36,552 nucleotides of DNA from Candidatus Nomurabacteria bacterium (GTDB lineage Bacteria > Patescibacteriota > Minisyncoccia > Phycocordibacterales > UBA9973), in contig CAIOXK010000005.1 in the NCBI GenBank assembly GCA_903862255.1, forward strand, positions 1 to 36,552, read 5' to 3'. Shown piece by piece: positions 36,238 to 36,552 of this stretch; within the stretch, counting starts at the first letter, position 1, and each line of letters begins with the position of its first letter. Made by a program: the position numbers and the translations under genes. The notes under the pieces were generated by a model. The model did no database searches. It worked only from the letters and a program-made list of their open reading frames with translations, and was not told where the DNA came from.

Positions 36238-36308
36238 GGGCGATTAGTTTAGTGGTAGAACGAAGGTCTCCAAAACCTTTGGTGGGGGTTCGATTCCCTC
36301 ATCGCTCG
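36238..36308 (+). tRNA. tRNA-Trp (anticodon CCA); 3' CCA not encoded
   Basis: Acceptor GGGCGAT/ATCGCTC, anticodon arm AAGGT-CTCCAAA-ACCTT, T arm GGGGG-TTCGATT-CCCTC. Confidence 0.93.
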
Positions 36309-36313
36309 CAGGC

Positions 36314-36356
36314 AATAAAAGCCCTTTCGATACTATACCGAGAGGGCTTTTATTAT
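36314..36356 (+). terminator. Terminator after tRNA-Trp
   Basis: AATAAAAGCCCTTTCG-N10-GAGAGGGCTTTTATT. Confidence 0.75.
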
Positions 36357-36369
36357 GGCTTGATATATA

Positions 36370-36397
36370 TTGACATTTTATTAAAAATGTGTATAAT
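36370..36397 (+). promoter_or_regulatory. Consensus promoter TTGACA-N16-TATAAT
   Basis: -35 36370-36375; -10 36392-36397; perfect hexamers. Confidence 0.85.
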
Positions 36398-36421
36398 ATT
36401 TACAAATTCTATATACGAAAA

Positions 36422-36479
36422 AACCACTATTTTTGTATATCATTCACATCAACGTTCCTCAGTATAGTGGTTAAGGAAC
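36422..36479 (+). promoter_or_regulatory. Structured 5' leader with two overlapping stems
   Basis: AACCACTAT (36422-36430)/ATAGTGGTT (36464-36472) and GTTCCT (36454-36459)/AGGAAC (36474-36479). Confidence 0.6.
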
Positions 36480-36509
36480 ATCATAAAAACCTTCAGGAGG
36501 AAGGACTAA

Positions 36510-36552
36510 ATGAACAAAACGTTACCAATTTTTGCATTTGCAGAAAAAATCA
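36510..36552 (+). CDS. Partial CDS at right edge (MNKTLPIFAFAEKI...)
   Basis: AGGAGG SD (36495-36500), consensus promoter and long leader upstream. Confidence 0.6.
   Translation, partial: MNKTLPIFAFAEKI

Follow-up and report, generated by a model that had tools for sequence, protein, structure and literature searches.

A putative kissing-loop leader RNA upstream of an HrpA-like helicase gene in a Candidatus Nomurabacteria genome

The 5′ leader of an RNA helicase gene at the right edge of a 36,552-nucleotide contig (C5; the whole of it is the window referred to below) from Candidatus Nomurabacteria contains stems and a loop complementarity that are stronger than chance, and a kissing-loop pseudoknot is the best reading of its two stems. 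Homologues of the helicase carry a comparable conserved RNA that is absent from Rfam, and therefore the RNA probably controls the amount of helicase. We give a probability of roughly 55% to the reading in which the leader is a cis-acting RNA that controls helicase translation through alternative use of a single UUCCUC arm, with the kissing loops stabilizing the fold.

Results

A consensus promoter precedes the leader

The perfect TTGACA-N16-TATAAT promoter reported in a preliminary description of this DNA is present on the forward strand (36370-36397; TTGACA at 36370-36375, TATAAT at 36392-36397) and is the single exact match to TTGACA-N15–19-TATAAT within the window. If transcription starts where the position of the −10 box implies, and with the ATG of the helicase gene at 36510, the leader would cover 36404-36509, or ~105-106 nt, in agreement with the earlier estimate of about 105 nt. 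A Shine-Dalgarno (SD) sequence, AGGAGG, lies at 36495-36500, 9 nt before the ATG. The same description held the leader to be unusual for this genome, and it is, because among 29 genes checked the helicase gene alone has an exact consensus promoter and is one of only two with an AGGAGG-type SD. Upstream, a terminator-like inverted repeat (36317-36351), read like the promoter and the SD from the sequence, separates the leader from the gene for tRNA-Trp (CCA) (trnW, 36238-36309, forward strand).

The leader is predicted to form kissing loops and an SD-pairing alternative

Both of the stems first described are there: AACCACTAT (36422-36430) and ATAGTGGTT (36464-36472) are perfect 9-bp complements, and GUUCCU (36454-36459) can pair with AGGAAC (36474-36479) in a 6-bp stem that encloses the 3′ arm of the first. 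Folding the leader with RNAfold, a check that had been proposed, exposed an 11-bp hairpin that the first reading had overlooked. This hairpin, H1 (36411-36440; 36411-36421 paired with 36430-36440), is found in both the minimum free energy (MFE) and centroid structures, and its 8-nt loop, AACCACUA (36422-36429), supplies the 5′ arm for the ‘9-bp stem’. The 6-bp stem closes hairpin H2 (36454-36479) in the MFE structure, with the 3′ arm in its 14-nt loop, inside which UAGUGGUU sits. Because one arm is the H1 loop and the other is within the H2 loop, the ‘9-bp stem’ is really a loop-to-loop complementarity (P1, 36422-36472), of 8 bp when H1 is fully closed and 9 bp otherwise. The original proposal was of a pseudoknot or mutually exclusive stems; a simple pseudoknot describes the leader less well than a kissing-loop pseudoknot whose second stem has an alternative pairing with the SD.

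That alternative, P2′ (36455-36502), would pair UUCCUC (36455-36460) with GAGGAA (36497-36502), which includes most of the SD, and so would occlude it. As UUCCUC could take part either in H2 or in pairing with the SD, this one arm offers a plausible on/off switch. A third hairpin, H3 (CCUUC/GAAGG, 36490-36504), is predicted from pair probabilities (H1 ~1.0, H2 0.87 and H3 0.91 in the nested ensemble).

Several comparisons place these structures beyond what shuffled sequence provides. The nested leader fold has a z of −2.2 to −2.4 against shuffles, and the best H-type pseudoknot, composed of P1 and P2′, was equalled in 1 of 400. The combination of H1, the loop pairing and P2 has a total stacking of −35.65, reached in none of 4000 dinucleotide shuffles; the kissing and pseudoknot energies are summed stacks only. 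Among 101 control upstream regions, a single one scored as high, through one very strong hairpin. A further pseudoknot seen when the promoter sequence was included was discarded because its 5′ arm precedes the likely start site.

The downstream gene encodes an HrpA/HrpB-type helicase, probably acquired

The right end of the window and contig C25 overlap exactly over 141 bp (window 36412-36552), and through this overlap the gene beyond the window, whose identification had been called for, could be read: the frame that opens at 36510-36552 continues on C25 (L003 12992-10983, minus strand) to give a 669-aa protein. It matches the Pfam models DEAD, Helicase_C, HA2_N and HA2_C above cutoff, and thus has the helicase core and HA2 domains of DEAH/RHA-type RNA helicases; the motifs GSGKT, DEVH and QRAGRAGR are present as well. 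Its best model matches are HrpA and HrpB, both far below their equivalog cutoffs (for HrpA, NCBIfam TIGR01967, 273 bits against 722.75), and its solved structural relatives include DHX8/DHX16 and HrpA. Judged by its sequence, the gene product is a DExH RNA helicase of HrpA/HrpB type. PADLOC returned weak generic helicase matches only and no defence assignment.

In several congeners the gene after trnW is miaA, in opposite orientation; here, trnW (on C5) is separated from miaA (on C25) by the helicase gene and a 141-aa open reading frame (ORF). This arrangement supports the joining of C5 to C25 and shows the insertion, of which trnW is the left neighbour; the identity of miaA, on C25 and beside trnW on L33, was confirmed by Pfam. 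The helicase gene is absent from all 35 related genomes sampled (11 of the same genus, 24 of the same family) and therefore was probably acquired. No close homologue of the window leader was found in the genomes sampled. The 141-aa ORF (L003:10459-10884), inserted along with the helicase gene and convergent to it, has no confident family match. The trnW-miaA interval (window 36238-36309 to L003:9351-10340) varies among congeners and resembles an insertion hot spot. The exact 141-bp overlap at the contig break (36412-36552) suggests an assembly-graph branch, possibly reflecting strain variation at the locus.

Homologous helicase genes carry a conserved leader RNA

Sporadic helicase homologues with ~27-50% identity turned up when the order, phylum and class were sampled, and large viral contigs carry them too; 14 of the homologues have a conserved leader RNA. 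Its first covariance model, R1, was built from five sequences and recovered seven more helicase leaders outside the training set, together with a tandem copy in L036; a second, R2, brought in the leaders of L054 and L055. The common leader opens with a GGGC(GGCCUU)GCCC hairpin, a P3 hairpin, the sequence AAGU and a P5 hairpin, and continues with P2, with an AAGGC segment that complements the first loop and, as a rule, with a P4 hairpin. The 3′ strand of P2 adjoins GGAGA, ~9-11 nt before start codons that were picked by eye. Like the window gene, several members have a strong sigma-70-like promoter and a leader of roughly 105-160 nt. The RNA has no Rfam entry, and we found no description of it in the open-access literature.

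Two lines of evidence bear on its structure. In an alignment fitted to the modelled helices covariation is strong: 22 of the 29 pairs show two-sided changes and 95.5% of cells are paired, which no shuffle equalled. The loop-to-P2 pairing is outside the model, and there, in a loop/partner table taken by hand from the alignment, matched partners outscored swapped ones (rank 8 of 720 for the six distinct loops, 137 of 20,000 for all). This comparison of sequences gives moderate support to a pseudoknot in the homologues.

Across 347 genomes of the order and 344 of the class, the confident model hits all lie before helicases, with two exceptions, a tandem copy and a remnant. The tandem copies are on one contig, at L036:546-655, before a neighbouring gene for an unassigned ~239-aa protein, and at L036:1381-1490, before the helicase. 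At the other locus (L107; G972:C13:19928-20039) the RNA precedes MNKGLPVWNYRK... and then an early stop; this looks like a helicase gene that has decayed while its leader was retained. Weak R1 hits in two genomes (G152 and G180) have unrelated genes as neighbours and were taken for false positives, and a pattern scan of IMG/VR for the conserved RNA gave five matches, all attributed to chance and without model support. Searching around G512, G280 and G105 yielded no closer leader.

Some helicase homologues have other leaders. In L037, L039 and L076, other long pseudoknots precede the helicase gene, with few or no shuffles equal to them; some homologues, including most of those from phages, have no significant pseudoknot, and the conserved RNA was not found with the phage or viral helicases. 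Viral contigs (L066-L075), several of them 95-430 kb long, encode HrpA-like helicases 35-45% identical to that of the window but do not have the leader RNA. Type III hammerhead motifs lie upstream of the helicase in L033 and in L039 (L039:3451-3505, minus strand); L033 has a second copy (its two are at L033:2712-2763 and L033:7005-7056), and an imperfect variant was recognized by eye in L038. The L039 motif (Rfam Hammerhead_3, 39.6 bits, E 3.7e-5, below the gathering score) was the only match in Rfam scans of the homologous leaders. In a halovirus, a helicase gene is already known to have a hammerhead shortly before it (PMC3088659).

The window leader resembles the conserved RNA in architecture

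The window leader and the conserved RNA stand before the same helicase family, and in each a hairpin loop is complementary to a stretch that P2 encloses. In the homologues the 3′ strand of P2 abuts the SD; here P2′ would overlap it. The window helicase also falls in a clade with L036, L038, L054 and L055, which have canonical leaders (support 0.86). The 3′ strand would lie 7 nt from the ATG if P2′ forms and 30 nt from it if H2, the stem favoured locally, does, against ~9-11 nt in the homologues, and the gap to P2′ is 24 nt, against ~18-25 nt in most of them. However, the P3-AAGU-P5 domain is absent from the window leader, where only 13 nt separate H1 from H2, and in place of a clear P4 hairpin there would be 4 bp (AAGG/CCUU). 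Neither R1 nor R2 hits the window, and with filters off the leader region gives chance-level matches only; because the models miss it, we describe the window leader as having a similar architecture and not as a proven member. Common descent, replacement or convergence may account for the likeness.

Discussion

We propose that the leader would exist in two states. In the ‘on’ state, H1 and H2 would form, and a kissing contact of 8-9 bp between their loops would keep UUCCU within H2, with the SD left free for ribosomes. If H2 were opened, UUCCUC could pair instead with the SD segment GAGGAA; P1 could persist, and the resulting pseudoknot would block initiation. The least certain step is the last, in which the helicase might shift the balance between these states and so feed back on its own synthesis. 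A structured and probably regulatory leader is supported. The preliminary description had named an autoregulatory leader among its options, and this option gains a context, in that the gene encodes an RNA helicase and the structured leaders of its homologues end at the SD; we infer the helicase as effector from the identity of the gene and from the way in which structured leaders recur with this family. A broader proposal is more tentative, and on balance we lean against it: pseudoknotted leader RNAs of a family not described before, retained alongside HrpA-like helicases in distant genomes of Patescibacteria type, would feedback-control helicase translation, and the window would hold a minimal kissing-loop version with its second helix over the SD.

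Other explanations must be weighed against control by the leader. The structured 5′ end may merely stabilize the mRNA or, in a genome where most genes have no SD, may help an acquired gene as a ribosome standby site or translation enhancer, with no switching or feedback. A strong promoter and an SD that are unusual in the genome fit this idea, as do an SD mostly unpaired in the nested ensemble and the one tandem copy in L036 that precedes a different gene. However, an SD-pairing alternative is built into the leader and the homologues’ pseudoknot abuts the SD at nearly fixed spacing, and we regard this explanation as unlikely, if still a serious one. Chance complementarity in an AT-rich leader, giving stems without function, would suit the leader of a single gene that lacks close homologues and that the homologous models fail to detect; it is improbable given the shuffling results, the exact enclosure of the 8-nt loop complement and the structured leaders of homologous genes.

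A riboswitch had been suggested, but the known classes find no support: an Rfam scan of the window matched the tRNA alone, with nothing meaningful in the leader even at E≤10, and no curated model of a riboswitch or cis-regulatory family in Rfam 15 has a match there. A ligand-binding riboswitch of an undescribed class could draw on the alternative pairings that involve the SD and on the conserved unpaired bases (AAGU) of the homologous RNA, but the conserved internal domain is missing from the window version and the downstream gene encodes a helicase and not a metabolic or transport protein; together with the missing Rfam match, this makes it very improbable. The CCTTC-AGGAG-GAAGG hairpin once thought to sequester part of the SD is predicted as H3, but it would not itself hide the SD because AGGAG lies in its loop. 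Although H3 contains the SD, an RNA thermometer is the least credible reading of all, as the mean unpaired fraction of the SD falls on warming in the nested model, from 0.82 at 4 °C to 0.79 at 37 °C and 0.69 at 60 °C.

RNA-based regulation is barely known in bacteria with reduced genomes of 0.5-1 Mb (here, by inference, Patescibacteria). A compact RNA fold that Rfam lacks and that recurs with a sporadic RNA helicase would constitute a new class of leader, and would offer a direct test case for an RNA helicase that reads its own message. Given the covariance alignment, the structure can be tested in vitro with no need to culture the host.

Comparison with known systems shows likenesses of several kinds. 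The preQ1 riboswitches, reviewed as pseudoknotted translational leaders (PMC11625349), and the standby pseudoknot of tisB (PMC7708055) likewise place a pseudoknot where it bears on the ribosome-binding site, but neither matches the window leader in sequence or family, and the downstream gene differs. E. coli HrpA is a DEAH helicase that, according to work cited in PMC11633108, reportedly splits collided ribosomes. It has its motor core in common with the window helicase (~270 bits to the HrpA model), which is half its length and scores 273 bits against a cutoff of 723. For RNA-acting enzymes, RNase E, as cited in PMC5874925, acts on its own 5′ UTR in a feedback on an RNA-processing enzyme. In Helicobacter pylori, where RNase J works with the helicase RhpA, the regulated gene is rnj and not that of the helicase (PMC5874925), whereas in the window control of the helicase itself is proposed. 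In both of these systems, the enzyme’s own 5′ UTR is the site of control, the same site that we propose for the window helicase.
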